Source: an uncultured beta proteobacterium
Lineage (GTDB): Bacteria; Pseudomonadota; Gammaproteobacteria; Burkholderiales; Rhodocyclaceae
Length of the DNA stretch: 64,000 nt
Reading direction: 5' to 3'
NCBI GenBank assembly: GCA_903908065.1
Contig: CAIVQO010000060.1
Location: forward strand, 62,001-126,000
The position numbers and the translations under genes were made by a program. Shown piece after piece: positions 3,245 through 61,382 of this stretch. Each line of letters opens with the position of its first letter. Position 1 is the stretch's first letter. Below the pieces are notes generated by a model that saw nothing but the letters and a program-made list of their open reading frames with translations, was not told where the DNA came from and did no database searches.

Positions 3245-4288
3245 TCATTCGAGCGCGAGGATCACGGCACCAAGAAGTCCCAGGCGTGGGTCGGTCGCGA
3301 CATGCACCGGCATGCGTGCTGCAATGTCCGCATGCTCTGCCTTGGCGTTGAAGGCGGGCAGGAAGCCGCTGCCGGGCAGCAGGTCGAGCAGCCGGCCGGC
3401 AATGCCGCCGGACAGATAAACACCGCCGCGCGGGAGGCAGGCCAGCGCCATGTCGCCAGCATAGGCACCATAGGCGGCAAGGAAGATTTCCAGGGCGCGA
3501 CGCGCCTTGCTGGCCCTATCGGCAAGCGCCATCGAGGCTACCTGTTCCGGCGTCAGCTCAGGCCCGCCGAGGAAGACATGGATCGCCGCCAGTCCCGGCC
3601 CCGAGACGACGCGTTCCCAGGTCACGCGACCGTGGCGCTGTTGAAGGTGGCGCCACAGCGCGGCTTGCTGCTCGTCGGCAGGGGCGAACGCGACATGGCC
3701 GCCTTCGCCGGGGATGCAGCTCCAGCGCTTGCCCTCCGGCACCACGATGGCCATGCCGAGGCCGGTCCCGGCGCCGACCACCAGGCGGGGCGATCCGGCC
3801 AGAGGTTCGCCAGCCTGCAGGCAGACCAGGGTGTCGCTCGCTGCCGTTACCGCGCCGATTGCGGCGGCGGCAAAATCATTCACCAGGCGTGGCGTAGGCA
3901 GGCGGAAATCGCGCGCTAGATCTGCGGCTACCAGACTCCAGGGCAGGTTGGTCAGGCGCGCGGAGGCGCCATCATCGGCGATTGGCCCGGCAACCGCGAA
4001 ACAGGCTCGGGCCAGCTTTGTAGGATCGGTCTGCGTGTCGGCCAGGAAACGCGCCAGAACGCCGGAAAAATCCTGAAAGTCGGCGTTGGCGTAACGGCGA
4101 TCCGCAATCAGGCGACCATCCCGCGCCAGCCCGAGCAGCGTCTTGGTGCCGCCGACGTCACCGCAAAGTATGTACTGCTTACCCCCCGCCCCCCTTTCCA
4201 GGAAAGGGGGTGACGAAAGTTCATCGGCTTCGCCGTTTCCGGGTATGGATGGTCCCGCCTTGGGGCTGCCCGGCGGCGGGACGTTCAC
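3245..4288 (-). CDS. glk: Glucokinase with an odd N-terminal extension
   Basis: Phosphorylates glucose with ATP (ROK/glucokinase fold). The family P-loop-like [11 protein letters not shown] begins near residue 43 rather than near residue 5. Later signatures are [47 protein letters not shown] and [10 protein letters not shown]. The only canonical start codon in frame is the GTG at 4288, which overlaps the thyA stop (GTGA). That leaves about 38 extra residues, translated through a palindromic intergenic repeat (4190-4210 and flank), which resemble no glucokinase. Translation could be coupled to thyA or could use a non-standard start. The enzyme call is firm; the start is not. Confidence 0.9.
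4076..4101 (+). repeat. 26-base dispersed repeat, copy inside glk
   Basis: Matches 23 of 26 positions of the window-wide consensus AAAGTCGGCGCTGGCGATAC followed by GGCGAT. It lies inside glk, antisense to the gene, over the codons for the segment around [13 protein letters not shown]. Confidence 0.6.
4188..4280. repeat. Palindromic GC-rich repeat, copy 1 (thyA-glk junction)
   Basis: A 21-base palindrome at 4190-4210 has perfect 10-base arms (CCCCCTTTCC and GGAAAGGGGG) around one centre base. It is followed by TGA and a flank that includes CGCCTTGGGGCTGCCC. The same architecture recurs at 31196-31280, with CCCCCTTCCC/GGGAAGGGGG, GTGA and CGCCCTTGGGGCGGCCC. Both copies lie at junctions between minus-strand genes. 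Here the repeat is inside the open frame of glucokinase. Confidence 0.7.
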
Positions 4289-5106
4289 ACCGCCACCGGC
4301 GCCGCGATGTGGGGATGCGGATCGTAGGCTTCGAGGGTGAAATCTTCGTAGCGGAAGCCAAAGATGTCCTTCACGGCGGGATTCAGCCGCATGGCGGGGA
4401 GCGGACGGGGCTCACGCGACAATTGCAGCCGCGCCTGGGCGAGGTGATTCGAATAGAGGTGGCAATCACCGCCGGTCCATACGAATTCGCCCGGTTCGAA
4501 ATCGCACACCTGCGCCACCATCAGCGTGAACAAGGCGTAGGAGGCGATGTTGAAGGGGACGCCAAGAAAAATGTCGGCGCTGCGCTGGTAGAGCTGACAG
4601 GACAGCCGCCCGCGGGACCCGGTCGCGTCAGCCGGCGGCGGGGCGACGTAGAACTGGAACAGGGCGTGGCAGGGCGGCAGCTTCATCTGCGGGATGTCGG
4701 CCGGGTTCCAGGCGCTGACGATGTGGCGGCGCGAATCCGGATTGCGCTTCAGGCCGTTGATCAGGTCGCGGATCTGGTCGATTTCGGCGCCCCCAGGCGC
4801 GGGCCAATGCCGCCACTGGTGCCCATAGACCGGCCCCAGGTCGCCATTGGCGTCCGCCCAGTCGTCCCAGATCGAGACACCGTTTTCCTTGAGGTAGCGG
4901 ATGTTGGTATCGCCCTGCAAAAACCAGAGCAATTCGTGGATGATCGAGCGCAGGTGCAACTTCTTGGTCGTCAGCAGTGGGAAGCCCCTGGCCAGGTCGA
5001 AACGCATTTGCCAGCCGAACACCGAGCGCGTCCCGGTACCGGTGCGGTCAGATTTGACGTGGCCGTGTTCGAGCACGTGTTGCATCAGGTCGAGGTAGGG
5101 GCGCAT
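4285..5106 (-). CDS. thyA: Thymidylate synthase
   Basis: Methylates dUMP to dTMP using methylene-tetrahydrofolate. The 273-residue length is close to the E. coli enzyme (264). The catalytic cysteine is in [12 protein letters not shown] at about residue 146. The phosphate- and nucleotide-binding segment [19 protein letters not shown] is present, as is GDCHLYSNH. An N-terminal [18 protein letters not shown] motif confirms the start at the ATG at 5106. The stop overlaps the GTG of the downstream glk frame, suggesting co-transcription. Confidence 0.97.
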
Positions 5107-5246
5107 CGCTTTTGGCTGCCGGGCATGGAGAACAGTTGCGACATTTTACTGAAACGCTTCCGGGGGGCTGGTGGGCAAGGAATGACAAGCCCGCCGTGAG
5201 CCGTTATCCTATTAACGCAAACTCTTGACACCCAAAGCGTATCGAC

Positions 5247-6734: not shown

Positions 6735-7325
6735 TCAGCCGGGCTTGGGCCGGATCGCCGACTTGGGGCGGAAGGCCTTGATCACCTCGTCGCGGGTCTC
6801 GATGTAGGGCCCGCCAATCAGGTCGATGCAGTAGGGTACTGCGGCAAAGATCCCCGGCACCAGCGAATTTCCCTCCGCATCCTTCGCCCCTTCCAGGGTC
6901 TCCTTGATCGCCTTGGGTTGCCCCGGCAGGTTGAGGATCAGCGACTTGCCCCGGATCACGGCCACCTGACGCGAAAGGATGGCGGTCGGCACGAAGGCCA
7001 GCGAGATCTGCCGCATCTGTTCGCCGAAGCCCGGCATCACCTTGTGCGCCACCGCCAGGGTCGCCTCGGGCGTCACGTCGCGCGGTGCCGGGCCGGTGCC
7101 GCCGGTGGTCAGCACCAGGTGGCAGCCGACCGTGTCGCAGAGTTCGATCAGGGTCTGTTCGATCACCGGCTGCTCGTCGGGAATCAGGCGGGTTTCCATG
7201 CGCCAGGGCGAGGCCATTGCGGCGCCAAACCATTCCTGCAGCGCAGGAATGCCCTTGTCCTCATACACGCCGGAAGACGCCCGGTCGGAAATGGAAACGA
7301 GGCCGATCAGCAGTTCATCGTTCAT
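6735..7325 (-). CDS. mog: Molybdopterin adenylyltransferase
   Basis: Adenylylates molybdopterin before molybdenum insertion during cofactor synthesis. The 196-residue product has the MoaB/Mog fold signatures: IGLVSISDRASSGVYEDKGI at the N-terminus, LVLTTGGTGPAPRDVTPEAT near residues 70-90 and LNLPGQPKAIKETL near 133-146. The ATG overlaps the stop of the upstream YdcF-like gene (ATGA). A molybdenum cofactor step is relevant here because the window also encodes IorB and a DMSO-reductase-family enzyme. Confidence 0.93.
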   Translation of the reverse strand: MNDELLIGLVSISDRASSGVYEDKGIPALQEWFGAAMASPWRMETRLIPDEQPVIEQTLIELCDTVGCHLVLTTGGTGPAPRDVTPEATLAVAHKVMPGFGEQMRQISLAFVPTAILSRQVAVIRGKSLILNLPGQPKAIKETLEGAKDAEGNSLVPGIFAAVPYCIDLIGGPYIETRDEVIKAFRPKSAIRPKPG

Positions 7326-8080
7326 GGCAAGGAGTCCTTGATGCGGTTGAAGAGTTGGCCGAGGTGCTCGTGGAGGGCTTCCTGAGCGGGACGCGGGTTG
7401 CGCGGCAGGTAGTCCTCGATCGCCGAGGGTGAGGCAGTGCGAAAGCCGGTGGGCGCCGGCAGGACCTCGATGCCCTCACGCCGAAAAAGCTCGGCAGAGC
7501 GCGGCATGTGCGAGGCGTGGGTGACCAGGGCGATGCGGCTGACGCCGTTGGCCTTGAGCAGGGGGGCCGACAGCGCGGCATTCTCCGCCGTGTCGCGCGA
7601 GGCCGTTTCGGTCCAGCGGACCTTGACGCCGAATTCCTTTTCCAGCACTTCGCGCATCGCATCCGCCTCGGCGCGCCCGCCGTGTGGCGAGCCGCTGGTA
7701 ACGAGCACGGGTAGGCCGGTTTCACGCGCCAGCCTGGCGCCGTAACGCACGCGCACCAGCGAGGCGCTGCCGACCGTGTCGCCGCCGTATTCGGGCGCGG
7801 CGTAATAGTTTCCGCCGCTGAGGATGACGATGGCCTGGGCGCGGCGCAGTGCCTCGGCGCTGATCGGCGCCTGCGGTGCGGCTGCCGGCATCAGGGCGCG
7901 GCCGACCGCCGGCATCGCCAGCGCGACCAGGGCGAGGAGGGAAGTCGTCGCCAGCATCAGGCCGGCGTACTGCCAGCGCCGACTTTTGCGCCGCGACAGC
8001 CAGAGGCCGAACAGCGCCAGCAGCACCGGGCCGGTGGGCGGCAGGATCAGGGCGGCGAGGATCTTCTTGAGCAGGAACAT
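7322..8080 (-). CDS. YdcF/SanA-like DUF218 membrane-anchored protein
   Basis: A 252-residue protein from the ATG at 8080 (MFLLKKILAALIL). Two N-terminal hydrophobic segments (about 1-25 and 38-58) precede a DUF218 domain with AIVILSGGNYYAAPEYGGDT, VLVTSGSPHGG, DTAENA and LVTHASHMPRSAELF. Relatives (ElyC, SanA, YdcF) act at the envelope, and ElyC affects lipid-carrier use in peptidoglycan assembly. The specific role here is unknown. The stop overlaps the mog start. It is divergent from metY. Confidence 0.85.
   Translation of the reverse strand: MFLLKKILAALILPPTGPVLLALFGLWLSRRKSRRWQYAGLMLATTSLLALVALAMPAVGRALMPAAAPQAPISAEALRRAQAIVILSGGNYYAAPEYGGDTVGSASLVRVRYGARLARETGLPVLVTSGSPHGGRAEADAMREVLEKEFGVKVRWTETASRDTAENAALSAPLLKANGVSRIALVTHASHMPRSAELFRREGIEVLPAPTGFRTASPSAIEDYLPRNPRPAQEALHEHLGQLFNRIKDSLP
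7961..7986 (-). repeat. 26-base dispersed repeat, copy inside the YdcF-like gene
   Basis: The minus strand reads AAAGTCGGCGCTGGCAGTAC and then CGCCGGC, matching the consensus at about 21 of 26 positions. It lies in frame in the loop between the two predicted membrane segments (RRKSRRWQYAG). Confidence 0.5.
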
Positions 8081-9897: not shown

Positions 9898-9906
9898 AAG
9901 GCCACC

Positions 9907-10418: not shown

Positions 10419-12458
10419 ATGGGTGCTCCTCACGTTAAGCACGCTGCCGCCGGCAGCAACACGCTGGCGGCGCGGCTGGCCCGGCTGGGCCTCAAGACCG
10501 ACGCCGATTTCATCCTCCACCTGCCGCTGCGCTACGAGGATGAAACCCGCATCACCGCCCTGGCCGACGCCTGGCCCGGCGTCGCGGCGCAGTTCGAGGT
10601 CGAAGTCACCGACTGCGAGATCGCCTATCGTCCGCGCCGCCAGCTGATCGCGCGGGTGCGTGATGCCAGTGGTGCCATTGCGCTGCGCTTCCTCAACTTC
10701 TACCCCAACCAGCAAAAAGTCTTGCAGCCGGGTGCCCGCCTGCGCGTGTTCGGGGAAATCAACCACGGCTTTATTGGTCCCGAAATCATCCATCCGCGCT
10801 TTCATCCGGTGGCGGCCGGCGAGGGCTTGCCGGAGGGGCTGACGCCTGTTTATCCGGCCACCGCCGGCCTCGGCCAGGCGACGCTGCGGCGCCTGATCGA
10901 CAAGGCGCTGGCGCGTTTCGATTTCAGCGATACCCTGCCCGCCGATCTGCTGCAGCGCCTGGCCTTGCCCGAGTTCGGCGCGGCCGTTCGCTTCCTGCAC
11001 TCACCGCCGCCCGAGATTTCGCAGGCGGCGCTGGAGTCGCGCGACTTCCCGGCCTGGCGCCGCATGCAGTTCGACGAACTGCTGGCGCAGCAACTCTCGC
11101 TGCGGCGCGCCTACCTTGCCCGCCGCGCGCGCGGTGCGCCGGTTTTGCGGCCGACGGCCAGGCTGACCGATGCCTTGCTTAGATCATTGCCCTTCCGGCT
11201 GACCGGCGCACAGAACCGTGCCTGGCGCGAGATTGCGACGGACCTCGCGCAAGCACACCCGATGCAGCGCCTGTTGCAGGGCGATGTCGGCAGCGGCAAG
11301 ACCATCGTCGCGGCGCTGGCCATGCTGCACGCGGTCGAGGCCGGCCATCAGGCGGCGCTGATGGCGCCGACCGAAATCCTCGCCGAGCAGCACTACCGCA
11401 AGCTCGCCGCCTGGCTGGCGCCGCTGGGCATAGAGGTGGCATGGCTCACCGGCAGCCTGAAGAAGAAGGACAAGGACGCCGCGATCGCAAAAGTCGGCGC
11501 TGGCGAGACGCCGATTGCGATCGGCACCCATGCCCTGATCGAGGACAAGGTCGAGTTCGCACGGCTGGGCCTCGCCATCGTCGACGAGCAGCACCGCTTC
11601 GGCGTGCGCCAGCGCCTGGCGCTCAAGGACAAGGGGCAGTTCGCCCACCAGCTGGCGATGTCGGCTACGCCGATCCCGCGCACCCTGGCCATGAGTTACT
11701 ACGCCGACCTCGATGTCTCGGTGCTCGACGAACTGCCGCCCGGGCGCACGCCGGTGACCACCAAACTGGTCGCCGAAAGCCGCCGCGGCGAAGTGCTGAA
11801 GCGTGTGCACGACGCCTGCCGCGGCGGACGCCAGGCCTACTGGGTCTGCCCGCTGATCGAGGAGAGCGAAAGCCTGCAGCTCAAGACCGCCGAGGAAACC
11901 TACGCGCGGCTTGCCGCCGAGCTGTCCGATCTCAAAGTGGGCCTGGTACATGGCCGGCTCAAGGTGGCCGACAAGGCGGCGGTGATGGCCGCCTTCGTGC
12001 GCAACGAGGTCCAGGTGCTGGTGGCGACCACGGTGATCGAGGTCGGCGTCGATGTGCCGAATGCCAGCCTGATGGTGATCGAGCACGCCGAGCGTTTCGG
12101 CCTGGCACAGCTGCACCAGTTGCGCGGCCGGGTCGGCCGCGGCGCCGACGCTTCGGCCTGCATCCTGATCTACGACCAGCCTCTGGGCGAGACGGCGCGG
12201 GCGCGGCTCAAGGTGATCTACGAATCCACCGACGGCTTCGCCATTGCGCGCGAGGACCTGCGCCTGCGCGGCCCCGGCGAATTCATCGGCGCGCGCCAGA
12301 GCGGCATGCCGCTGCTGCGCTATGCCGACCTGGAGGATGCCGCGCTGGTGGAACAGGCGCGGACGATCGCCGAAGACATGCTGCGCAGCGATCCCGGTCG
12401 CGCAGACGCGCACCTGCAGCGCTGGCTGGGCGGGCGCGAGGAATTGCTCAAGGCGTAA
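10419..12458 (+). CDS. recG: ATP-dependent DNA helicase RecG
   Basis: Branch-migration helicase for stalled forks and Holliday junctions. At 679 residues it is close to the family norm of about 690. An N-terminal wedge/OB region contains [13 protein letters not shown]. It is followed by Walker [12 protein letters not shown] near residue 287, [11 protein letters not shown] near 388, [12 protein letters not shown] near 414, and helicase motifs V-VI ([28 protein letters not shown]). The ATG at 10419 lies immediately after a composite repeat. The protein also carries a copy of the 26-base repeat, encoding [13 protein letters not shown] just before GTHAL. Confidence 0.95.
11490..11515 (+). repeat. 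26-base dispersed repeat, copy inside recG
   Basis: Matches 24 of 26 consensus positions and is read in frame as KVGAGETPI. It lies in the helicase domain ahead of the conserved GTHAL segment. Confidence 0.55.
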
Positions 12459-12468: not shown

Positions 12469-13356
12469 ATGGATTTCGCGGAACTCAAGCAGCGCCTGAC
12501 CCTCTACGAAAAGCTGATGCGGCTGGACAAGCCGATCGGCACGTTGCTGCTGCTGTGGCCCACCTTCTGGGCGCTTTGGCTGGCTACCGAAGGACAGCCG
12601 CACATCCTGCTGGTGTGGATCTTCGCGCTTGGCACGCTGCTGATGCGCTCAGCCGGTTGCGTGATCAACGATTACGCCGACCGCGACTTTGATCCCCACG
12701 TCAAGCGCACCCGCGAGCGGCCGCTGGCGGCAGGCGCGGTGAGCACGCGGGAAGCCCTGGCCCTGTTCGCGGTGCTCTGCGTTTGCGCCTTCCTGGTCGC
12801 CTTGCCGATCATGCGCGACGTGTGGCACCTGACCCTGGTGGCGCTGTTCCTCGCTGCCAGCTATCCGTTTACCAAACGCTTTTTCGCCCTGCCGCAGGCC
12901 TACCTCGGCATCGCCTTCGGTTTTGGCATCCCGATGGCTTTCGCCGCCGCGACCGGCGAGGTCGGCCTGCTGGGCTGGACCCTGCTGGCGACCAACATTT
13001 TCTGGGCCCTGGCCTACGACACCGAGTACGCCATGGTGGATCGCGATGACGACCTCAAGATTGGCATACGCACAGCGGCGATTACCTTCGGCCGCTTCGA
13101 TGTGGTGGCGGTCATGAGCTGCTACACCATCACCCTGGGCATGCTCGGCGTGATTGGCTGGGACCGGCAGTTCGGCGCCGGCTACTTTGGCGGCTTGCTG
13201 CTGGCCGCCGCGATCGCCGGCTACCACTACACGCTGATTCGCGATCGCAGCCGCGAGGGCTGCTTCAAGGCCTTCCGCCACAACAACTGGTTCGGCGCGG
13301 CGATCTTCGCCGGCATCGTCGCCGAATTCAACCTGCGGCCCTGGCTCGGCCTGTGA
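12469..13356 (+). CDS. ubiA: 4-hydroxybenzoate polyprenyltransferase
   Basis: Attaches the polyprenyl tail to 4-hydroxybenzoate in ubiquinone synthesis; an inner-membrane enzyme of 295 residues with about eight hydrophobic segments. Both Asp-rich prenyl diphosphate/Mg motifs are clear: [12 protein letters not shown] near residues 64-75 and [14 protein letters not shown] near 182-195. It starts 10 bases after recG and its stop overlaps the GTG of the next gene. With ubiD two genes downstream, this is a ubiquinone biosynthesis transcript. Confidence 0.95.
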
Positions 13357-14450
13357 GGCTGCTGGCACTTCTGGCCTTGCTGGCGGGCCTGGCCGCCTGC
13401 ACGCCGGTGAATCTGAACTACAACTCGGCCAAGGCCCACCACCGGCCGCAGGGCTTCGTCAATACCGATCCGACGGCCAAGGTCGGCGGCATTCCCTGGT
13501 ACGAAATCCTGTACCGCAATCTGCGCGGCGATTTCCGTCCGACGGCGCCGCCTGCGGGTGGCTACGCGGCCTTCGCCGCGCAATGGACGATGCCGGTCGA
13601 TCACGCCCTGCTGGCGCGGCGCAGTGAAACGCCGCGCATCACCTGGCTGGGCCACGCCTCGCTGCTGTTGCAGGTGGCCGGCAAGAACATCCTGATCGAT
13701 CCGCAGTTTTCAGACACTGCCGGCCCCATGCTGTTCGGCGTGTTCGACCTCGGCGCGCCGCGCCTGGTGCCGGCGCCGATCAGGGAACGCGAGTTGCCGC
13801 CCATCGACCTGGTGCTGATCTCGCACAACCACTACGACCACCTCGACGAGCCGACGCTGCATAGGCTCGCCGCGGCCGGGCACAAGCCGGCCTATGTGGT
13901 GCCGCTGGGGCTCAAGACCTGGTTCGACGAGCGTGGCATCGGTCCGGTGCTGGCCGAGTTCGACTGGTGGGACAGCCAGGAACTCGGTCCGCTGCGCCTG
14001 GGCTTCACGCCGGCGCAGCACTGGAGCCGGCGCACCGCCTTCGACACCAACGCCACCCTGTGGGGCGGCTTCCTCGTCGAATGGCGGCGTGCGGATGCGG
14101 CGCCCTGGCGTTTCCTGTACACCGGCGATACCGGCTACTCGGCCGACTTCAAGGAAATCCGTCGCCGTTTGGGCGCGGTGGATTTCCTTGCCGTGCCGGT
14201 GGGCGCCTACCTGCCGCGCGACTTCATGGGCCCGCAACACGTGAATCCCGACGACGCGCTGCAGATCCTTCTAGACCTCGAGGCGAAGCAGGGCGTCGGC
14301 GTGCATTGGGGCACCTTCGCCCTGACCCAGGAGCCCTTCGACCAGCCGCCGCGCGACCTGGATTCGGCGTCCCGCCAGCGCCGACTTTCGTCCGAGCGGA
14401 TCTGGCTGCTGAAACATGGCGAGACACGCACGGTTAGAATCGAAAAATGA
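13353..14450 (+). CDS. Metallo-beta-lactamase-fold lipoprotein (NAPE-PLD/UlaG-like)
   Basis: A 365-residue protein from a GTG that overlaps the ubiA stop. An N-terminal lipobox-like segment ([10 protein letters not shown], Cys near residue 16) predicts a lipoprotein. The hydrolase domain has [21 protein letters not shown], the metal site [12 protein letters not shown] near residues 152-163, [10 protein letters not shown] and VHWGTF, as in NAPE-type phospholipase D and UlaG families. The substrate is unknown. Its stop overlaps the ubiD start (ATGA), so it is embedded in the ubiquinone operon. A 26-base repeat copy lies in its last 30 codons. Confidence 0.85.
14363..14388 (-). repeat. 26-base dispersed repeat, copy near the end of the metallo-beta-lactamase gene
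   Basis: The minus strand matches 22 of 26 consensus positions (AAAGTCGGCGCTGGCGGGAC then GCCGAA). It is antisense to the gene and is translated there as part of the [12 protein letters not shown] region. Confidence 0.6.
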
Positions 14451-18312: not shown

Positions 18313-20457
18313 ATGGAAACCACCCGCCGCGATTTCCTCAAGGTCTCCGCCGCGCTCGGCGGCGGCCTCGCCCTCGAATTTTCCTTCCCGCTGACGGCCA
18401 TGGCGGCCAGGGGCCAGACGCCCGCCGAGGTCAATGCCTGGGTGGTGATCCATCCCGACGACCGCGTGGTGGTGCGCATCGCCCGCTCCGAGATGGGGCA
18501 GGGGACGCAGACTGCGCTGGCACAGCTGGTGGCCGAGGAACTCGATGCCGACTGGAGCAAGGTCAGCACCGAGTTCGCCTCGCCCAACGAGCATATCCGC
18601 AGGAAGCGCATCTGGGGCTCGATGTCCACCGGCGGCAGCCAGGGCGTGCGCAGTTCGCAGGATTACGTGCGCAAGGCCGGGGCCGCCGCCCGCCTGATGC
18701 TGGTGGAGGCCGCTGCCGCGCGCTGGAAGGTTCCGGCCGCGGAATGCATCGGCGCCAACAGCGTGGTTACCCACGCTGCCACCGGGCGCCGCCTGCGCTA
18801 TGGCGAGCTCGCGGCCGACGCGGCAAAGCTGACGCCGCCCAGCAACCCGCCCCTGCGCGACCCCAAGGACTGGAAGATTGCCGGCAAGCCGCTGCGCCGC
18901 CTCGACATTCCCGACAAGGTGCTGGGCAAGCCGGTGTTCGGCGTCGACGTGGTGTTGCCCGGCATGCTGCACGCCTCGATCGCGCAATGCCCGCTGTTCG
19001 GCGGCAAGCTCAAGGGCGTCGATGCCGCGGTGGCGGAAAAAATGCGCGGCGTGAAGAAGGTGGTGCGCGAGGCGGACTTCGTTGCCGTCATTGCCGACAG
19101 CTGGTGGCGCGCCGACCAGGCACTGAAGAAGCTGGCCATCGAATGGGATGAAGGCGCCGACGCGCAGGCCAGCAGCGAGAGCATCATGAAGCTGTTGCGC
19201 GACGGCCTCGCCGATCCCAAGCTGGCCTCGGCGCGAAAAGTCGGCGATGCGGACACGGCGCTGGCAGCCGCGGCGAAGGTGATCGAAGCCGAGTACCACT
19301 CGCCCTACGTCAATCACGCCACCATGGAGCCGCAGACCTGCACCGCCTGGTTCAAGGCCGACGGCACGCTGGAGGTATGGACCTCGACCCAGAACGCCGA
19401 GGCCTCGATGGCCATGGCCGCCGAAACCGCCGGCCTGCCGCTGGAAAAGGTCGAGGTGCACAAGCCCATGTTGGGCGGCGGCTTCGGCCGCCGCGGGGCG
19501 CCGCAGGATTTCGTCAAGCAGGGCGTGCTGATCGCCAAGGCGATGCCCGGCACGCCGGTGAAGATGATGTGGTCGCGCGCCGAGGACATGCAGCACGGCT
19601 ATTACCGGCCGGCCAGCCTGGTGCGCATGAAGGCCGGCCTCGACGCCCAGGGCAATGTCAGCGCCATGCAGGTGGGCATTGCCTGCCCCTCCATCCTCGC
19701 CTTGCTGCGGCCGGAGGCGATCAAGGATGGCGTCGATTTCACCGCGGTGCGCACGCTCAGCGACATGCCCTACGGCATTCCCCACCAGAAGATCGACTAT
19801 GCCATGCGCAACCCGCGCGTGCCGGTCGGCTTCTGGCGCGCACCGGGCTTGCAGAACGCCTATTACCGCGAATGCTTCATCGACGAGCTGGCGGTGGCGG
19901 CCGGGCGCGATCCGCTCGAATACCGCCTCGCCATGCTCAAGCCCGGCGACAAGAACCGCCTGGTGCTCGAAGCCGTGGCCAAGGCGGCCAACTGGGGCGG
20001 CCCGCTGCCCGCCGGCGTGCATCGCGGCATCGCGGTGTCCGACGGCTTCGGCAGCTACACGGCGATGGTGGCCGAGGTTTCGGTGTCGAACAAGGGCGAA
20101 CTCAAGGTGCATCGCGTCGTGTCGGCGATCGATTCGGGCTACGTGGTCAATCCCGACACCTGCCGCGCCCAGTCCGAGGGCAACATCGCCTTCATGCTCG
20201 GCGCCACCCAGTACCAGGAAAACACCGTCGCCAAAGGGCGCATGGTCGAGGCCAATTTCGACCAGTTTCGCCTGCTGGGGCTAGCCGAGATGCCCAAGGT
20301 GGAAACCGTGCTGGTGCCCACCGGCGGCTTCTGGGGCGGGCATGGCGAACCCGGCGCGCTGTGCGTGGCGCCGGCCCTGTGCAATGCAATCTACGCCGCC
20401 ACCGGCAAGCGCATCCGCTCCCTGCCGCTGAAGCATCACGATTTAAGGAAAGCGTGA
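18313..20457 (+). CDS. iorB: Isoquinoline 1-oxidoreductase-type molybdopterin subunit, Tat-exported
   Basis: Catalytic subunit of a xanthine-oxidase-family enzyme with the cytosine-dinucleotide molybdenum cofactor. At 714 residues it has the IorB length. The start METTRRDFLKVSAALGGG is a twin-arginine signal, so the enzyme is periplasmic. Motifs include MGQGTQTALAQLVAEELDAD, GGGFGRRGAPQDF near residues 392-404 (cofactor binding), GFWRAPG and a C-terminal GHGEPGALCVAPALCNAI with the active-site Glu region. The substrate is unknown; 'isoquinoline' is only the family name. The stop overlaps the soxX start (GTGA), so it is translationally linked to the Sox genes. Confidence 0.88.
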   Translation: METTRRDFLKVSAALGGGLALEFSFPLTAMAARGQTPAEVNAWVVIHPDDRVVVRIARSEMGQGTQTALAQLVAEELDADWSKVSTEFASPNEHIRRKRIWGSMSTGGSQGVRSSQDYVRKAGAAARLMLVEAAAARWKVPAAECIGANSVVTHAATGRRLRYGELAADAAKLTPPSNPPLRDPKDWKIAGKPLRRLDIPDKVLGKPVFGVDVVLPGMLHASIAQCPLFGGKLKGVDAAVAEKMRGVKKVVREADFVAVIADSWWRADQALKKLAIEWDEGADAQASSESIMKLLRDGLADPKLASARKVGDADTALAAAAKVIEAEYHSPYVNHATMEPQTCTAWFKADGTLEVWTSTQNAEASMAMAAETAGLPLEKVEVHKPMLGGGFGRRGAPQDFVKQGVLIAKAMPGTPVKMMWSRAEDMQHGYYRPASLVRMKAGLDAQGNVSAMQVGIACPSILALLRPEAIKDGVDFTAVRTLSDMPYGIPHQKIDYAMRNPRVPVGFWRAPGLQNAYYRECFIDELAVAAGRDPLEYRLAMLKPGDKNRLVLEAVAKAANWGGPLPAGVHRGIAVSDGFGSYTAMVAEVSVSNKGELKVHRVVSAIDSGYVVNPDTCRAQSEGNIAFMLGATQYQENTVAKGRMVEANFDQFRLLGLAEMPKVETVLVPTGGFWGGHGEPGALCVAPALCNAIYAATGKRIRSLPLKHHDLRKA
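19237..19262 (+). repeat. 26-base dispersed repeat, weak copy inside iorB
   Basis: Matches about 21 of 26 consensus positions and is read in frame as KVGDADTAL. This weaker copy could be ordinary coding sequence. Confidence 0.3.
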
Positions 20458-20852
20458 AACGGGGAGTGGCGGTGCTGCTCACCGCGCTGTCCGGGTTGGC
20501 GCTTGCGAACGATGCGCTTGAGCAGCCGCTGGCAGCCGGTGGCGATGCCCAGCGCGGACGGGCGGTGTTCGTCGACCGTGAGCAGGGCCACTGCGTGATC
20601 TGCCATGCCCTCGGCAGCGTGGCGCCGGCGGGCAACGTCGGCCCGGCGCTGGACCAGGTCGGCGCCCGGCTCACGGCGGCCCAGCTGCGCCAGCGCATTG
20701 TCGACATCACCCAGGTCAAGCCCGACGCGGCGATGCCGGCCTTCTACCGGCGCGAGGGACTCAACCGGGTGGCCGCCACCCATGCCGGCAAGACCCTGCT
20801 CGACGCCCGGCAGGTCGAGGACCTGGTGGCCTTTCTCGCGGCGCAACGATGA
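20454..20852 (+). CDS. soxX: SoxX, monohaem c-type cytochrome of the Sox system
   Basis: 132 residues from the GTG overlapping the iorB stop. A Sec signal (MKRGVAVLLTALSGLALA) precedes a haem c site, CVICH, near residue 48. A distal methionine ligand is likely in DAAMPAFYR near residue 94. The small size and the soxXYZA order identify SoxX, which pairs with SoxA to couple reduced sulfur to the SoxYZ carrier. Its stop overlaps the soxY ATG. Confidence 0.88.
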   Translation: MKRGVAVLLTALSGLALANDALEQPLAAGGDAQRGRAVFVDREQGHCVICHALGSVAPAGNVGPALDQVGARLTAAQLRQRIVDITQVKPDAAMPAFYRREGLNRVAATHAGKTLLDARQVEDLVAFLAAQR

Positions 20853-21307
20853 GGCGGCGCCATTTCCTGAAAGTCGGCGCTGGCGGCACGGCGATTTTGG
20901 CGGTGCCGGCCGCCGCGCAACAGCTGCTGCCGGCCCATGACCTCGCGCCCTTGATCATGCAGATCGCCGGCACCAGTCCGCCCCGGCCGGGACGGGTGCG
21001 CATCGGCCTGCCCTCGCTGGCCGAGAACGGCAATTCGGTGCCGCTCGATCTGGCGGTCGACAGCCCGATGAGCGAGGCCGACCACGTGCGCAGCATCCAT
21101 GTCCTTGCCGAACGCAATCCACGGCCGCTGGTGGCCTCCTTCCAGCTTGGCCCGTTGGCCGGGCGCGCACAGTTGTCGCTGCGTATTCGCCTCGCCGGCA
21201 GCCAGCGCGTGGTGGCGCTGGCGGTGATGTCGGACGGTGCCTGCTGGTCGGCCGAAACCGAGGTGGTGGTGACCTCTGCCGCCTGCCTCGACGAGCTGAG
21301 CCTGTGA
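20849..21307 (+). CDS. soxY: SoxY-like sulfur carrier with an atypical C-terminus
   Basis: 152 residues with a Tat signal (MRRRHFLKVGAGGTAILAV then PAAA). The SoxY domain reads VRIGLPSLAENGNSVPL and ADHVRSIHVLAERNPRPLVA. Canonical SoxY ends in a flexible GGCGG whose Cys carries the substrate. Here the end is VVVTSAACLDELSL, so the cysteine is kept but the flanking glycines are replaced and six residues follow. The h-region of its Tat signal is encoded by a copy of the 26-base dispersed repeat (20870-20895). Overlaps both soxX and soxZ. Confidence 0.85.
   Translation: MRRRHFLKVGAGGTAILAVPAAAQQLLPAHDLAPLIMQIAGTSPPRPGRVRIGLPSLAENGNSVPLDLAVDSPMSEADHVRSIHVLAERNPRPLVASFQLGPLAGRAQLSLRIRLAGSQRVVALAVMSDGACWSAETEVVVTSAACLDELSL
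20870..20895 (+). repeat. 26-base dispersed repeat, copy inside the soxY signal peptide
   Basis: Matches 24 of 26 consensus positions and is read in frame as KVGAGGTAI within the Tat signal of SoxY. The match continues into ATTTTGGCGG, which also occurs at 52745-52754. Confidence 0.6.
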
Positions 21308-26774: not shown

Positions 26775-26800
26775 GCCGCCGTATCGCCATCGCCGACTTC
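26775..26800 (-). repeat. 26-base dispersed repeat, intergenic copy
   Basis: The minus strand matches 22 of 26 consensus positions (GAAGTCGGCGATGGCGATAC then GGCGGC). It lies in the 119-base gap between the propeller gene and the TrmO-like gene. Confidence 0.6.
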
Positions 26801-34300: not shown

Positions 34301-34326
34301 ATCGCCGTGTCTCCAGCGCCGACTCC
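34301..34326 (-). repeat. 26-base dispersed repeat, intergenic copy
   Basis: The minus strand matches 22 of 26 consensus positions (GGAGTCGGCGCTGGAGACAC then GGCGAT). It lies between the divergent SenC and 34399 genes, 22 bases upstream of a candidate sigma-54 promoter. Confidence 0.6.
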
Positions 34327-41020: not shown

Positions 41021-41046
41021 CTCGCCGTGTCGCCGGCGCCGACTTT
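41021..41046 (-). repeat. 26-base dispersed repeat, intergenic copy
   Basis: The minus strand matches 23 of 26 consensus positions (AAAGTCGGCGCCGGCGACAC then GGCGAG). It lies between the TRAP binding-protein gene and the receiver remnant. Confidence 0.65.
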
Positions 41047-43445: not shown

Positions 43446-45152
<1,707 letters not shown>

Positions 45153-50198: not shown

Positions 50199-50224
50199 AA
50201 AGTCGGCGCCGGCGATACGGCGAT
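50199..50224 (+). repeat. 26-base dispersed repeat, best-matching intergenic copy
   Basis: Matches 25 of 26 consensus positions (AAAGTCGGCGCCGGCGATAC then GGCGAT). It lies between the dioxygenase stop and the ATP-grasp gene, and its last bases touch the dioxygenase stop codon. Confidence 0.7.
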
Positions 50225-51003
50225 TACGCTGCCGGATCGAAGCGATACGCATCCATCGCCAGCGCGCCGAGCTGGTAGCCGCGATGCACGGCGCTGGCGC
50301 GGGCGCCGTCGCCGGCGGCGCCCAGTGCGACGAACAGCGGCAACAGGTGTTCCGGCGTCGGATGCGCGCGCCGGCCGTACGGCGCGCTGGCCTCCCAGTC
50401 GAGCAGCGCAGCAGCGTCGCCCTTGCCCAGCATGTCGGCGAACCAGTCGCTGAACGCGGCGACATGGGGCAGGGCCCGGTCATCCGGCGCATCCGGGATC
50501 ATTTCGTAAAGGTTGTGCGTCAGGCTGCCCGAGGCCAGCAGCAGCACGCCCTCGCGTGCCAGCGGCGCGAGGCGGCGGCCCAGTTCATGGTGCGCGGCGG
50601 CGTCGGCTTCCGGCATCACGGCAAGCTGGATCACCGGTATGTCGGCGGCCGGATACATCAGCGAGAGCGGCGCCCAGGCGCCGTGGTCGAGGCCGCGCAG
50701 GGCGTCGACCTTGATCCCCGGCACCAGCCCGGCAACTTGGGCGGCCAGCTCGGTGCTGCCGGGCGCGGCGTAGTCGAGATCGTAGAGCGAGTCGGGGAAG
50801 CCGTAGAAATCGTGGATGGTGGCCGGCCGCGGCGCAGCGCTGACCGCCGCCACGCGCGTGGTCCAGTGCGCCGAGACGGCGAGGATGGCGCGCGGACGTG
50901 GCAGGTCGGCGGCCAGGCGCCGCCAGGCGGCGCCCGTGGCGCCCGGCTCCAGCAGCAACATCGGCGAACCGTGGGAGAGGAAGACGGGTGGGATGGTGTT
51001 CAT
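50224..51003 (-). CDS. LigB-type extradiol dioxygenase (DODA/YgiD family)
   Basis: 259 residues. Class III extradiol dioxygenase fold with metal-site histidines in VFLSHGSPMLLLEPG (near 11), LAVSAHWTT (near 46) and ASGSLTHNLYEM (near 165), plus TIHDFYGFPDSLYDLDYAAP. YgiD and plant DODA open 4,5-DOPA; the natural bacterial substrate is often unknown. It is upstream of the Anbu operon but separated by 187 bases with a dispersed repeat, so likely a separate transcript. Confidence 0.9.
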   Translation of the reverse strand: MNTIPPVFLSHGSPMLLLEPGATGAAWRRLAADLPRPRAILAVSAHWTTRVAAVSAAPRPATIHDFYGFPDSLYDLDYAAPGSTELAAQVAGLVPGIKVDALRGLDHGAWAPLSLMYPAADIPVIQLAVMPEADAAAHHELGRRLAPLAREGVLLLASGSLTHNLYEMIPDAPDDRALPHVAAFSDWFADMLGKGDAAALLDWEASAPYGRRAHPTPEHLLPLFVALGAAGDGARASAVHRGYQLGALAMDAYRFDPAA

Positions 51004-52587: not shown

Positions 52588-52686
52588 ATGTACTTCATGT
52601 TCTCCTATGCCTTGTGCATCCTGCTGATGTGGGTCTTCCCGGTTACCGTGACCGGGCTGCCGAATTGGATGCTGGGGGCGGGATGA
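52585..52686 (+). pseudogene. C-terminal remnant of an integral membrane protein
   Basis: Plus-strand codons give VMYFMFSYALCILLMWVFPV followed by TVTGLPNWMLGAG and a stop, a typical last transmembrane helix. Upstream the frame dissolves into the antisense of the EAL fragment, marking a recombination joint near 52575-52590. It resembles the ends of TRAP DctM permeases, but this is a weak guess. Confidence 0.4.
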
Positions 52687-52762
52687 GAGTCGGCACTCAC
52701 GTGCGTTGCATGCCTGGCTTTCCGCTTCGCGGGACGGCAACGGCGATTTTGGCGGCTACGCC

Positions 52763-53839: not shown

Positions 53840-54825
53840 TGACCACGATTGCAGCACTCGGCGCCGGACGCATGGGGCGCGGCATCGCCCATGCCTTCGC
53901 CTATGCCGGACACGAAGTCTGGCTGATCGACGCCAAGCCGCGCAGCAGCGAGGCCGCGCAGGCGCTGGAGGCCGAAGCGCGGCGCGAGATCGCGGCCAGC
54001 CTGGCCACGCTCGCCGAGCTCGGCGTCTTCGACGCAGCCCTGATTCCTGCAATGCTGTCGCGAGTCCGTTTTGCTGCCCGCGAGGCAGCGCCGGAGGTGC
54101 TGGCCAAGGTCGACGTGCTGTTCGAAGGCGTACCGGAAAAGCTCGACGCCAAGCGCGAGGCCTTCGAATTTGCCTGCGCCTACCTGCGCCCCGAGGCGCT
54201 GCTGGCCTCCACCACCTCGACCATGCTGTCCACCGAGCTGGCCGGCTTCGTCAGTTGTCCTGAGCGCTTTCTCAACGCGCACTGGCTCAATCCGGCTTAC
54301 CTGATTCCGCTGGTCGAAGTGTCGCCGCATCCGGGCACCGATCCGGCCGCGACGCAACGCCTGAATGACCTGCTGTCCGCAATCGGCAAGCAGCCGGTGC
54401 TGTGCCAGGCGGCGCCCGGCTACATCGTGCCGCGATTGCAGGCGCTGTTGATGAACGAGGCGGCACGCATGGTGGAGCAGGGCGTCGCCACGCCGGAGGA
54501 CATCGACCGCGCCGTGCGCTACGGATTCGGCCCGCGCTTCGCCAGCATGGGTGTGGTCGAGTTCATCGACTTCGGCGGCCTGGACATCCTCTACTACGCC
54601 AGCCACTACCTGGCGAAGGCGCTCGACGATCCTTGCCGCGCACCGCCGGCCATCGTCGACCGCTACATGGCCGAAGGCCGCGCCGGCCTGCGCGAAGGCA
54701 AGGGCTTCTTCGACTGGTCGCAGGTCGATGCGGCCGCCTATCGCCGCGAGGTGATGCAGCGCCAGCTGGCGCTGCTGAAACAACTGGGCATGGTGCCGGC
54801 GCCCGGCGGGGCGAAATCGCCGTAG
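53839..54825 (+). CDS. 3-hydroxyacyl-CoA dehydrogenase family protein
   Basis: 328 residues. The Rossmann motif is ALGAGRMGRGIAHAFAYAGH at residues 6-25. Catalytic Ser and His lie in STTSTMLS and FLNAHWLNPAYLIPLVEV (His near 143). The C-terminal dimerisation domain has MVEQGVATPEDIDRAVRYGF. This is the short HbdA/L-gulonate-dehydrogenase-like form without a hydratase domain. Co-transcribed with the opine-dehydrogenase-like gene, perhaps acting on successive hydroxy or oxo acids. Confidence 0.88.
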   Translation: MTTIAALGAGRMGRGIAHAFAYAGHEVWLIDAKPRSSEAAQALEAEARREIAASLATLAELGVFDAALIPAMLSRVRFAAREAAPEVLAKVDVLFEGVPEKLDAKREAFEFACAYLRPEALLASTTSTMLSTELAGFVSCPERFLNAHWLNPAYLIPLVEVSPHPGTDPAATQRLNDLLSAIGKQPVLCQAAPGYIVPRLQALLMNEAARMVEQGVATPEDIDRAVRYGFGPRFASMGVVEFIDFGGLDILYYASHYLAKALDDPCRAPPAIVDRYMAEGRAGLREGKGFFDWSQVDAAAYRREVMQRQLALLKQLGMVPAPGGAKSP

Positions 54826-54841
54826 TACCGGCGCCGACTTT
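54816..54841 (-). repeat. 26-base dispersed repeat, copy at a convergent gene junction
   Basis: The minus strand matches 22 of 26 consensus positions (AAAGTCGGCGCCGGTACTAC then GGCGAT). It spans the end of the 3-hydroxyacyl-CoA dehydrogenase gene and the 16-base gap to the convergent DUF4395 gene. Confidence 0.6.
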
Positions 54842-55588
54842 CTATTTGCAGTTGTTGTGCAGCTTCCACTTTTCCTCGTGGCCGATGGCCACGGCGAAGG
54901 CGGGCGGCTTGCAGCGCTCGGCTTCGGTGGCCGCTGCCGCGGTGGGAGGCGCCATCGCCGGCTGCGTTGCCAGCGACTCGGCGGCGGGAAAGGCGCGCGA
55001 ACCGACCAGTGCCATCAGCGCGAGATAGGCCGCCAGGATCGCCGTGCCGCCGGCGCCGACTTTCTGGCTCGGGTGCGGCACGAAGACTTCGCAGCTGCCG
55101 CCGGCGCAGTACTGGGCCGAGCGGCCGGGCAGCGCGTTGTAGATCTTGCAGCCGATGCAGATGCCGAAGGCGCTCTCGAAGAACATCAGCGTCAGGCAGG
55201 TGGCGCAGACGATCATGTTGATCGGCCCGATCACGTTGTTGATCACGATCAGCCACAGCATGACAATCGCCAGCAGCCAGCCGATGGCCCAGGCAAAGCG
55301 CTTCTGCGGCGCGCCGACCCACTCCGCCGCCTGGCCGCGCACGGCAAAGCGCGCCGCGATCATGCTTGGTGCGTAGCGTGGATTGACGAACAGGCGGATC
55401 GTGAAGTCGATCAGGAAGGCGATGACGAAGATCTTGGTCGGGCGGAAGTTGCCCTGGAACCAGGCGCTGGAGAAGGTCATGAAGGCGAACAGGAACATGA
55501 TGCCGGCCGCAGCGCGCACTTCGCGTTCGTTGAGTACCGGCACGTCGTAGCCGCTGACCTGCTCCCCAAATCCGATGCTGCCGACCAT
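54842..55588 (-). CDS. DUF4395 membrane protein
   Basis: 248 residues with four membrane segments in the first 150 residues. DUF4395 features are present: an NEREVRAAAGIMFLFAFMTF opening, FVNPRYAPSM, and the Cys pairs CATCLTLMFFESAFGICIGC. In frame with the protein, the segment QKVGAGGTAILAAY (near 177-190) is encoded by a copy of the 26-base repeat and precedes a poorly conserved, Ala/Pro-rich C-terminal tail. The repeat may have extended or altered the end of this protein. Function unknown; often linked with sulfur or thiosulfate genes. Confidence 0.85.
   Translation of the reverse strand: MVGSIGFGEQVSGYDVPVLNEREVRAAAGIMFLFAFMTFSSAWFQGNFRPTKIFVIAFLIDFTIRLFVNPRYAPSMIAARFAVRGQAAEWVGAPQKRFAWAIGWLLAIVMLWLIVINNVIGPINMIVCATCLTLMFFESAFGICIGCKIYNALPGRSAQYCAGGSCEVFVPHPSQKVGAGGTAILAAYLALMALVGSRAFPAAESLATQPAMAPPTAAAATEAERCKPPAFAVAIGHEEKWKLHNNCK
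55038..55063 (-). repeat. 26-base dispersed repeat, copy inside the DUF4395 gene
   Basis: The minus strand matches 23 of 26 consensus positions (AAAGTCGGCGCCGGCGGCAC then GGCGAT), read in frame as KVGAGGTAI. Confidence 0.65.
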
Positions 55589-57446: not shown

Positions 57447-57461
57447 GAATTGCTCCAGATG

Positions 57462-57487
57462 AAAGTCGGTGCTGGCGATATGGTTCG
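57462..57487 (+). repeat. 26-base dispersed repeat, degenerate intergenic copy
   Basis: Matches about 20 of 26 consensus positions. The left part (AAAGTCGGTGCTGGCGATA) is well kept and the right end has decayed. It lies 16 bases upstream of osmC. Confidence 0.4.
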
Positions 57488-57605
57488 GCTGGATTGGATC
57501 GCGCGGCTGCTCCGCCAGAGGGTGAATCTCTGGCGTGTCATGCCTCGATTGTGCCGCAAAAGCCGGTGGCGAACCCGGCATGGGCATGGCCTCGCGAGGC
57601 GAGAC

Positions 57606-58935
<1,330 letters not shown>

Positions 58936-58949
<14 letters not shown>

Positions 58950-60378
58950 AGGGAATCTCGATGCGGAAGGTGGTGTTGCCCGGTTCGCTGTCGACCGTCA
59001 GGCCGCCATTGAGCTGTTTGACGATCTGGTACACCACCCAGAGACCCAGGCCGTGGCCTTTCTCGCGGCCACTGGCGAAGGGTTCGAAGAGGTGCGCCAT
59101 TTGCTCGTCGGGAATGTGGGCGCCGTCGTTGCAGACCGACAGGCGCAGCATGTCGTCCTTCGCTTCCATGCCGATGCGCACCTTGCCGCCATGGTCGGCG
59201 GCCGCCACGGCGTTGAGCAGCAAGTTGAGCACGATCTGGCGCAGCAGCGTGGCGGGCAGCGGTAGCGGGCTTTCCAGCCGGCCGCCGACGCTCAGCGTCA
59301 CGGCGCGCGCGCTGGCCTCGGCGTCGACCAGGATCAGCAGGTCGTCGATGTCGGTCGGGGCGAAGGCGCGGTCCTTGGCCTTGGTCTCGACCAGCAGTGC
59401 GGCGACGGTATTGCGGATCTGGTCGAGGCCGCGTTCCAGCAGCGAAAAGGTTTCCAGCGCCAGCGGGTCGCCGTTGCCGTGGCGGCGGTAGGTGGTGATC
59501 GCGGTCAGCATGCCGCCCAGCGGGTTGTTGATCTCGTGCGCAATGCCGGCCGAGAGGCGGCCGACGGCGGCCAGGCGCTGCGAGGCGATCATCTGTTCTT
59601 CCAGTTCCTGCTTTTCGCGCAGTTCGCCCACCATGCGGCGGAAGGCATCGCCGAGCTGGCCGATCTCGTCGCGGCTCGATGGCAGTTCGGGCAGGCGCGC
59701 CGTGCCGAGTTCGCCCGGCACCTGGCGCATGGCCTCGGAGAGCGCGAGCAGCGGCTCGCCGGTCTTGCGCGCGAAGTACCAGGAGATGGGCAGGATCACC
59801 AGCAGCACCAGCAGCGTGACCACCGCCGAGTTCATCACCAGGTTGACGAAACGCGGGCCGAAGGCTGCCTTCGAGTAACCGAGGACCACGTAGCCCAACG
59901 GCACGGCATCGGCCACCAGCGGCGAAATGACGAAGAACAGCGGCGAATGCTCGGGTTCGAAGACGCGTTGTTCGCGCGCCTCGATGCCTTTCATCTGTTC
60001 GGGAAGCAGCCCGTAGGCATCCTTGCGCCGCGCCAGGTCGAGCCCGACGGGGAAGTCACGCGGGCGGCTGGCGGCGAACACCCGCGCCTGGCGATCGACC
60101 ACCAGCATGACTTCGGCCTGAAGTTCGGGCGCGGCGGGGCTGGTCTCGCGCCCCGATTGCAGGATCTCGAAGGCGCGCCAGAGGTCGTCGTGCAGTACCG
60201 GCGCCACCAGCGTGTTGGCCATCACGCGGCCCAGGCTCATGGCATGGCTGGTGAGGCTTTGGCGCAACTCGTTGCGTTCGCGCGCGATCATCGCCACGGT
60301 GACCGCCAGCGCCGTGCCGAGCACCGCGGCCATCACACGCAGCGGGATCTTCCAGCGCAGCGAAAGGTCGTCGATCAT
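58936..60378 (-). CDS. Sensor histidine kinase of a three-component system
   Basis: 480 residues. Two membrane segments (about 12-32 and 180-202) flank a periplasmic domain of about 145 residues containing VLHDDLWRAFEILQ and VMLVVDRQARVFAASRPRDF. A HAMP-like linker leads to HisKA with GIAHEINNPLGGML near 279 and an ATPase with LNLLLNAVAAADHGGKV and GHGLGLWVVYQIVKQ. It lies between its regulator and a periplasmic binding protein 7 bases upstream, which probably presents the signal. Confidence 0.93.
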
Positions 60379-60385
60379 TCGTCGC

Positions 60386-61276
60386 TCAAGCCCGGCTGAC
60401 CCGGCTCACCATGCGCGCGATGCCGTCATACAGGCCGGGCGAGGCATCAGTGAAGCCCTCGAGGCGCAGGCTGCCGAGCAGGCTGGCGCCCTCCGCATCG
60501 CTCGCCATGCCCATCAGGGCGCGGCGAAAGTGTTCGTACCCGGCTTGCGGCATATCCTGGCGGGCGACGAAGGGCGGATGGCCGAGCAGCGGCGAACGCG
60601 CCATGACGCGGGTGCCGCGCGTCAATTCGGGTGCCGTTTCGTTGAGCACCTCCCAGACATAGCCATCCACCGCGCCGCCCGCGGCGAGGCCGACGCTGAC
60701 TGCCTCGACCACCTTGCGATGGCCCCAGGTGTAGAAGCTGCGGGAAAAGAAACTGGCCGCATTTTCCCCGGCCTGGGCCAATACGTATTGCGGATACAGG
60801 TAGCCCGAATTCGAATCCGGGTCGGAGTAGGCGAAGACCTCGCCGCGCAGGTCGAGCAGGCTCTTGCTGCGCCGGTCATCGGCCGGCACGATCAGGTAGG
60901 ACTGGTAGAGCGGCTTGCCGCGCCACAGCGGCACGGCCACCAGCCGCATCTCCCGCCGGTAGCGCACATACGGGTAGCCACAGACCCAGGCGAAGTCGAT
61001 CTTGCCCTGGCGCACCAGGTCAACCACCTCGCGGTAATTGCCGCGCTGGACGAAACTCACCGGCTGCCCGAGGCGGCGTTCGAACCACAGCCGCCAGCGT
61101 TCGAGGAAACTCACCTGGTCGTCGAGGAACACAGGTGTCAGGCCGATGCGCAGGCGTTCCGGTGCTGCCCGTGCGAGGCGGCTTCCGCCAGTCAGCGCGC
61201 ATAGGCCGACCATGCCAGCGGCCTTGATCCAGCGTCGCCGCGACAGCTTCTCCAGTGGCTCGTCGGTCCCCTTCAT
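60386..61276 (-). CDS. Tat-exported PhnD-type periplasmic binding protein, sensor component
   Basis: 296 residues from the ATG at 61276. A twin-arginine signal (LSRRRWIKAAGMVGLCAL) precedes a phosphate/phosphonate-binding-protein-like domain with LRIGLTPVFLDDQVSFLERW, IDFAWVCGYPYVRYRREM, VFAYSDPDSNSGYLYPQYVL and GAVDGYVWEVLNE. No ABC permease is present. Encoded just before a kinase and a regulator, it fits a TorT/TtrS-style three-component sensor for an electron acceptor or oxyanion. Confidence 0.88.
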   Translation of the reverse strand: MKGTDEPLEKLSRRRWIKAAGMVGLCALTGGSRLARAAPERLRIGLTPVFLDDQVSFLERWRLWFERRLGQPVSFVQRGNYREVVDLVRQGKIDFAWVCGYPYVRYRREMRLVAVPLWRGKPLYQSYLIVPADDRRSKSLLDLRGEVFAYSDPDSNSGYLYPQYVLAQAGENAASFFSRSFYTWGHRKVVEAVSVGLAAGGAVDGYVWEVLNETAPELTRGTRVMARSPLLGHPPFVARQDMPQAGYEHFRRALMGMASDAEGASLLGSLRLEGFTDASPGLYDGIARMVSRVSRA

Positions 61277-61356
61277 GAGCCCATGATAGCCAGTCGCTTG
61301 GCGGCGCGCAGCCTCGATTTGAGGATGGTTACGACAGCGGAACATGTTGCGCCGCA

Positions 61357-61382
61357 AAAGTCGGCGCTGGTGTTACGGCAAT
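61357..61382 (+). repeat. 26-base dispersed repeat, intergenic copy
   Basis: Matches 23 of 26 consensus positions (AAAGTCGGCGCTGGTGTTAC then GGCAAT). It lies in the divergent control region between the three-component system and the polyferredoxin gene. Confidence 0.6.

Follow-up and report, generated by a model that had tools for sequence, protein, structure and literature searches.

What is the short sequence that recurs in both orientations through a stretch of DNA from an uncultured beta proteobacterium of the Rhodocyclaceae? The stretch (hereafter the window) comprises 64,000 nucleotides, positions 62,001 to 126,000 of contig CAIVQO010000060.1 (assembly GCA_903908065.1). A preliminary description had noted about 16 copies of a 26-base repeat in it and had offered three origins: an uptake-signal-like sequence, an element akin to repetitive extragenic palindromic (REP) sequences and spread by a transposase, or a chromosome-organisation site. 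Our analysis suggests that the repeat is probably a self-recognition tag of the Rhodocyclaceae resembling a DNA uptake sequence (DUS), with a putative role in uptake.

The core of the repeat is 24 bases long, AAAGTCGGCGCYGGCGNNACGGCG, and its two N vary freely. Alignment of the copies gave R-AAAGTCGGCGCYGGCGNNACGGCG-(AT). Positions 17-18 are nearly free in it, and its first two bases, like the AT at its end, are loosely conserved. About 22 of the 24 core positions are specified; outside the motif, the sole clear signal in 42 aligned copies is a purine just 5′ of the copy. Two points of the 26-base consensus proposed earlier need correction: there is little conservation in its closing AT, and its RY pair (purine, pyrimidine) is nearly free. 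All 15 listed copies were found at the positions and on the strands given for them. With the RY pair read as NN, 14 of the 15 have 0-4 mismatches and the one at 57462 has six. The matches had been said to lie beyond chance, and this was borne out, as 11 copies at three mismatches or fewer occur in the window versus none in 100 dinucleotide shuffles.

The same excess was found genome-wide. The assembly from which the window comes (G000; 3,840,682 bases in 103 contigs) has 387 copies at three mismatches or fewer, 174 on the plus and 213 on the minus strand, while the reversed-pattern control gave 0; the count is far over chance. The single-contig genome G002 (3,802,648 bases) has 492 copies at this threshold. 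The window's genus is Sulfuritalea-like, and all 30 of its other genomes examined carry the motif at three mismatches or fewer, from 23 copies (G017) to 505 (G018), with reversed controls of 0. We then have a family survey of 395 genomes, made at two mismatches or fewer to the 24-base core. At least one match was present in 168 of them (reversed controls 0-3), and 55 genomes from six genera were motif-rich, with 163-709 copies. These were 22 of 23 genomes of the window's genus, g1 (265-650 copies; the other, G017, had 34), 18 of 19 of g43 (163-624), all four of g70 (260-521), all nine of g88 (232-401), and one genome each of g32 (G061, 709) and g62 (703). The remaining family genomes mostly had 0-5 copies, with higher counts in G076 (48), G098 (27) and genus g34 (up to 17). 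One g43 genome, G293, showed no clear excess (0 copies at two mismatches; 9 of a loose skeleton versus 5 in the control). A survey of 399 genomes of the order, at one mismatch or fewer, used the window's spelling only, and other spellings would escape it; among the 386 genomes of other families, 19 had any copy and the maximum was five (G483). Exact copies were present in at least 119 stretches of a species genome collection, mostly titled Sulfuritalea, Rhodocyclaceae, Rhodocyclales or uncultured beta proteobacterium. A few of those listed were titled Sulfurisoma, Rugosibacter, Burkholderiaceae, Gammaproteobacteria, Rubrivivax, Sulfurimicrobium, Propionivibrio or Thermoflexus.

In some motif-poor genomes, the copies are clustered in one short stretch: L341-L343 (G135), L344 (G108), L345 (G109) and L346 (G436). 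Such packing suggests either acquisition of DNA from relatives rich in the motif or contamination during binning. L344 is 88% identical over 1,671 bases to L057, a locus titled Sulfuritalea. Exact copies were also found in six contigs (L158-L163) of the viral collection IMG/VR, and the spacing of two copies is identical in L160 and L162.

Many copies lie in reading frames, where they may be read as the peptide K-V-G-A-G-x-T-A-I, and the repeat could in principle be ordinary conserved coding sequence or an artefact of composition. Frame 0 is dominant among the coding copies on the gene's own strand, which favours such an explanation. However, copies occur in both orientations and in unrelated proteins, the reversed controls are near zero, third positions are constrained, and the intergenic copies have already refuted it. 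We regard it as practically untenable.

Orthologous sites indicate how the motif comes and goes. The copy at 11490..11515 (+) lies in recG (10419-12458), where it is translated K-V-G-A-G-E-T-P-I. It is in the same register in 26 of the 29 same-genus genomes in which the site is covered, the window's own genome included. It is missing from G017, G025 and G021, which have the three lowest genome-wide counts (23, 112 and 87). Family outgroups have other letters at this site, G036 and G033 without gaps and six more with small gaps, so the possibility that the same bases are present at all orthologous loci as ordinary conserved coding sequence did not hold. The stretch aligned to the solved RecG chain 9wm0 without insertion. 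At four-fold degenerate third positions, the five usable codons in the copy had a conservation of 0.936 versus 0.789 in the rest of the gene (P 0.011, random sets). The exact copy at 55038..55063 (−), in a DUF4395 gene (54842-55588, −), is retained in 19 of the 22 orthologues compared within the genus; in G011, G024 and G023, which lack it, other letters are found with net length unchanged. A set of 1,133 aligned pairs, built on 98 source copies and dominated by recG, showed no net gap of 26 or 27 at motif-lacking orthologues; the closest was one of 21, where the stretch aligned poorly (L178 vs L080). At the genes tested, mainly recG and DUF4395, the motif is gained and lost through substitution in place, not through 26-base insertion. 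In this it is like DUS and the uptake signal sequence (USS), with the limit that the data are mostly from recG and hardly cover intergenic copies.

These results bear on the suggestion that the repeat is a short mobile or REP-like element, copied about by a transposase of the REP-associated tyrosine transposase (RAYT) type or a similar one. REP elements are short, dispersed, present in many copies and often intergenic. The copies studied here are likewise highly similar and in excess outside genes, Y1_Tnp (RAYT-type) genes were found in 14 of 23 motif-bearing genomes, and one absent site has the net gap of 21. But that alignment is poor, gaps of the expected 26 or 27 are lacking in the pairs compared, which are mostly of recG, and the recG site can be aligned in outgroups with different letters, in two of them gapless. 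The transposase genes are absent from nine of the 23 motif-bearing genomes, namely the window's own genome and eight others, including the single-contig genomes G132 and G125, and they are present in seven of 11 motif-poor genomes. Four of the 23 (G063, G125, G098 and G076) have other dialects or middling counts. The NN pair is free, and a whole group of genomes can have one changed letter at unlinked copies, neither of which fits copying of an element. On folding, a point partly in favour of such an element, one spelling did somewhat better than its shuffles (z −1.74; 11 of 200 shuffles as good), while two others were not (z −0.57 and +0.60), and several dialect letters would break pairs of the weak hairpin; secondary structure was rejected as a shared feature of the motif, being weak and not common to the spellings. 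Unlike REP elements, then, the motif has a weak hairpin at most, can do without a RAYT-type gene and changes by substitution. The transposase-borne origin offered in the preliminary description is, on this evidence, very unlikely.

The spelling of the motif differs between lineages. For the dialect search, the core was loosened to AAAGTC-N6-GGCGNNACGGCG, and spellings were taken from the matches listed and from sampled stretches. Genus g34 has the spelling AAAGTCAGTCCCGGCGNNACGGCG, with 446 copies at two mismatches or fewer in G063 versus 11 in the control, and exact skeletons number 1-51 per genome in 16 genomes among the matches listed. In G098 (g69) the spelling is AAAGTCGACGCTGG(G/C)GNNACGG(T/C)(G/A), with 139 copies versus 7 in the control, and in G061 (g32) position 9 is mixed C/T (831 versus 14). 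Three g43 genomes, G072, G132 and G209, have 163-413 copies at two mismatches and just 1-4 exact ones. Among the matches listed, the ending ACGGCA was seen in nine of ten for G072 and in eight of ten for G132, whereas other g43 genomes are rich in the exact G form. The form AAAGTCAGTCCC is one dialect spelling of the motif. Within the window's genus, position 6 is T rather than C in 25 of 27 sampled copies of G027, 11 of 12 of G001 and four of five of G016, compared with one of 73 in G002. This is a dialect switch (C to T) within the genus. A common letter change at many unlinked copies is what would be expected if the reader of the sequence had changed. Lineage-specific dialects, as in g34, g69, some of g43, g32 and at position 6 within g1, are also a property of DUS and USS.

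One lineage appears to be losing the motif. In G017, a genome of the same genus that is 99% complete, about 0.3 Mb was sampled and three copies at three mismatches or fewer were found. Eight orthologous rows (recG twice) gave one copy kept, five with 4-7 mismatches and two with 11-12; these numbers are small. In the G002 control for this comparison, six of ten copies were kept. The G017 lineage is apparently eroding its motif copies.

To analyse placement along the chromosome, we sampled G002 in 20 stretches, each 20 kb long and picked by position and not by motif, and counted copies at four mismatches or fewer. The sample has 73 copies, 41 on the plus and 32 on the minus strand. Guided by the sign of the GC skew, which was set by hand for the two halves, 38 of the 73 fall on the leading strand; in the whole of G002 the two strands have 198 and 190 copies. 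The number per stretch has a mean of 3.65 and a variance of 3.61, as for random placement, and no common spacing was seen among 20 listed pairs of copies less than 600 bases apart that could indicate fixed-distance or inverted pairs. Outside genes or at gene edges were 26 of the 73 copies versus 12.7% expected (p 5e-7). Ten of these 26 were in convergent gaps and three in divergent ones, where 11% and 19% were expected. The copies within genes of the G002 sample keep to certain frames. In a larger set, partly selected by motif, 139 of 270 copies were within genes versus 84% expected. Genes were called with a script of our own; at 20849 it did not catch where the SoxY-family gene truly starts, so the non-coding excess is somewhat overestimated. 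A genome-wide excess, presence on both strands without replication polarity, and over-representation outside coding sequence are all shared with DUS and USS.

A further explanation is that the motif is a genome-wide site for an intracellular DNA-binding protein (in nucleoid organisation, marking or repair), maintained by selection site by site and with no role in uptake. Known sites of this kind, such as those called KOPS, Chi and matS, are short, distributed genome-wide and read by proteins. The constraint on the motif and its dialect changes would fit co-evolution with any protein that reads the sequence, and the random spacing is compatible with such a site. On the other hand, no polarity or regional pattern was seen in the sampled stretches, copies lie within unrelated genes such as recG and their presence varies between species, and a drive through uptake is easier to account for than selection acting separately on hundreds of scattered sites; the non-coding excess, too, is known for uptake sequences. 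Compared with KOPS, Chi and matS, the motif is much longer, has dialects in relatives, and shows neither the replication polarity (no orientation bias along replichores in the G002 sample) nor the regional restriction. Of the chromosome-organisation origin offered earlier, polarity and clustering were not seen in the sampled stretches, and what is left is a non-polar protein-binding site, which we consider rather unlikely, though a serious alternative.

We return to the uptake tag, which is our preferred explanation. On this model, DNA with AAAGTC......GGCGNNACGGCG would be preferred by a receptor on the cell surface, for which a type IV minor pilin is the likeliest candidate. DNA taken up preferentially would then, by homologous recombination, swap out near-matching chromosomal sequence, and the tag would accumulate through point substitution at sites that tolerate change. 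A change of receptor would lead the spelling to drift into dialects, and loss of the preference would leave the tag to erode. The distribution, the in-place origin at the tested genes, the DNA-level constraint in recG, the dialects and the part-decayed copies of one lineage are observed; to these the model adds a receptor, an uptake bias and a recombination drive, which we infer.

Several observations weigh against this explanation. The constraint in recG is modest, and windows near codons 284 and 574 of the gene are equally conserved. In locus pairs not selected by motif, core similarity in coding sequence was 0.840 versus 0.792 in the flanks (0.715 at NN), a slight difference, and in intergenic sequence 0.883 versus 0.862 (seven pairs, four source copies); another set of orthologue pairs, picked for holding the motif, was excluded as conservation evidence. 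The DUF4395 copy persists at one mismatch in G017. About 22 specified positions are many compared with the 9-12 nt or so of known tags, and the density (492 copies in G002, 387 in G000) is far under the thousands of the Neisseriaceae. Given so low a density and so long a motif, the drive through uptake bias would need to be strong. A depletion of copies in foreign DNA was not supported, because the copy-free low-GC stretch L166 carries metabolic genes and no prophage. Competence genes had been named as a thing to look for, and matches to them occur both with and without the motif. ComEC, whose presence would suit the uptake model, was found in 36 of 37 genomes, just as much in motif-free relatives and G017, and its search also matched 10 of 14 control genomes. 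Of 61 genomes, 55 have the ComP_DUS pilin family (PF16732), whether they carry the motif or not, and its proteins from 30 genomes form a mixed set. Neither gene separates motif-rich from motif-free genomes. The uptake-signal-like origin agrees with the distributional tests and stays putative.

How does the motif compare with the uptake sequences already described? A 2025 paper assigned DUS and USS to the Neisseriaceae and Pasteurellaceae only. According to PMC1939737, uptake sequences are non-palindromic, lack orientation bias, have arisen by point mutation and not by insertion, and are often in reading frames yet in excess in non-coding DNA; PMC2346458 adds that, within reading frames, one orientation occurs more often than the other. 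Apart from the possible weak hairpin in one spelling, the motif of the Rhodocyclaceae conforms to these traits. PMC3630211 describes eight dialects in the Neisseriaceae that follow the phylogeny and share an inner core, with thousands of copies. The motif resembles this DUS, which also belongs to Betaproteobacteria, in its many copies and its lineage dialects with a common inner core. It differs from the 10-12 bases of the Neisseriaceae DUS in being unrelated in sequence, far longer and less numerous. The USS of the Pasteurellaceae (29 bp consensus in Haemophilus influenzae), as described in PMC1939737, is like the motif in being long, partly degenerate and of point-mutation origin, with a non-coding excess and no orientation bias. 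The motif and the H. influenzae USS (aAAGTGCGGT) both start with AAAGT and have CGG nearby, which may be chance. Whereas the USS has a 9-base core with loose AT-rich flanks, the motif is GC-rich and conserved mostly throughout its 24 bases, except for NN.

Searches of the literature for uptake sequences in the Rhodocyclales or Rhodocyclaceae, thin on subscription journals and preprints, found none. Wider searches gave none on a Rhodocyclaceae uptake tag by title among the matches listed, those by the letters of the motif gave none relevant by title, and those for a Sulfuritalea genomic repeat gave none by title among the matches listed. We propose that the Rhodocyclaceae may have an uptake-sequence system that is independent of the known ones and longer. 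It may well be a third, independently evolved system of self-DNA recognition, with a 24-base tag that has more strictly conserved positions than DUS or the core of the USS, at least five dialects, a switch within a genus and a palindromic inserter. If this is true, a third family's long tag, its several dialects, the C to T switch within a genus and the apparently eroding G017 would allow a direct test, through comparative genomics and with environmental isolates, of an old question: do such tags originate in selection for self-recognition, or in a bias of uptake together with recombination?

The palindromic inserter was seen at the split copy that the preliminary description had placed at 52686..52754 (+). 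Our analysis agrees with that account: a palindromic insert stands between a left part, AGAGTCGGCAC, and a right one, ACGGCGAT. The palindrome lies around TTCCGCTTCGCGG, and the break in the motif falls between GGCG and ACGGCG. Similar arrangements were found in L104, L165, L168 (7560-7620), L173, L176, L180 and L037. All split loci agree in the distance to the right part and, except for L104 (2 bases off), in that to the left part; the left part is poorer in L037 and the window, with three mismatches. Half-motifs of opposite sense lie beside the palindrome in L072, L085 and L324, and the palindrome is also seen without the motif, for example in L129 and L152. L168 (G002) holds the insert where the orthologous L115 (L115:62) has an intact copy. 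The palindrome resembles a small REP-like element, one that is often inserted close to the N positions of the tag, and the likeness to REP is closer for this insert than for the motif. One may ask whether the motif is simply the preferred target of the palindromic element, its spread reflecting the biology of that element. The recurrence of the palindrome between the same two parts at several loci and the orthologous pair with intact and split copies speak for it. But split copies are few (5, against 73 intact ones, in the 400 kb of G002 that were sampled), and an insertion target need not multiply or stay conserved; such an origin of the motif is highly improbable.

The other copies in the window lie in varied surroundings. 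About half had been placed at gene boundaries and the rest in coding sequence; we correct this to eight coding copies, the one at 20870 included, and seven that are intergenic or at gene ends. Besides those in recG and the DUF4395 gene, the coding copies are at 4076..4101 (+), on the strand opposite a glucokinase-family gene (3245-4288, −); at 7961..7986 (−), degenerate with four mismatches, in a DUF218 gene (7322-8080, −); at 14363..14388 (−), opposite a gene of the metallo-beta-lactamase fold (13353-14450, +); at 19237..19262 (+), weak with four mismatches, in a molybdopterin-cofactor-binding gene (18313-20457, +); at 43939..43964 (−), in a DUF2126 gene (43446-45152, −); and at 20870..20895 (+). 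Intergenic copies are found at 26775..26800 (−, four mismatches), at 34301..34326 (−) between divergent genes, at 41021..41046 (−) between convergent genes, at 57462..57487 (+, the degenerate copy with six mismatches) and at 61357..61382 (+). A LigB-family gene (50224-51003, −) has an exact copy at its 3′ end, 50199..50224 (+), and a copy at 54816..54841 (−) likewise marks the 3′ end of a 3HCDH gene (53872-54825, +). The copy at 20870..20895 is exact and lies in the SoxY-family gene (20849-21307), within the part that encodes a signal like that of twin-arginine translocation (MRRRHFLKVGAGGTAILA), and part of the signal peptide of this protein is thus encoded by a copy of the motif.

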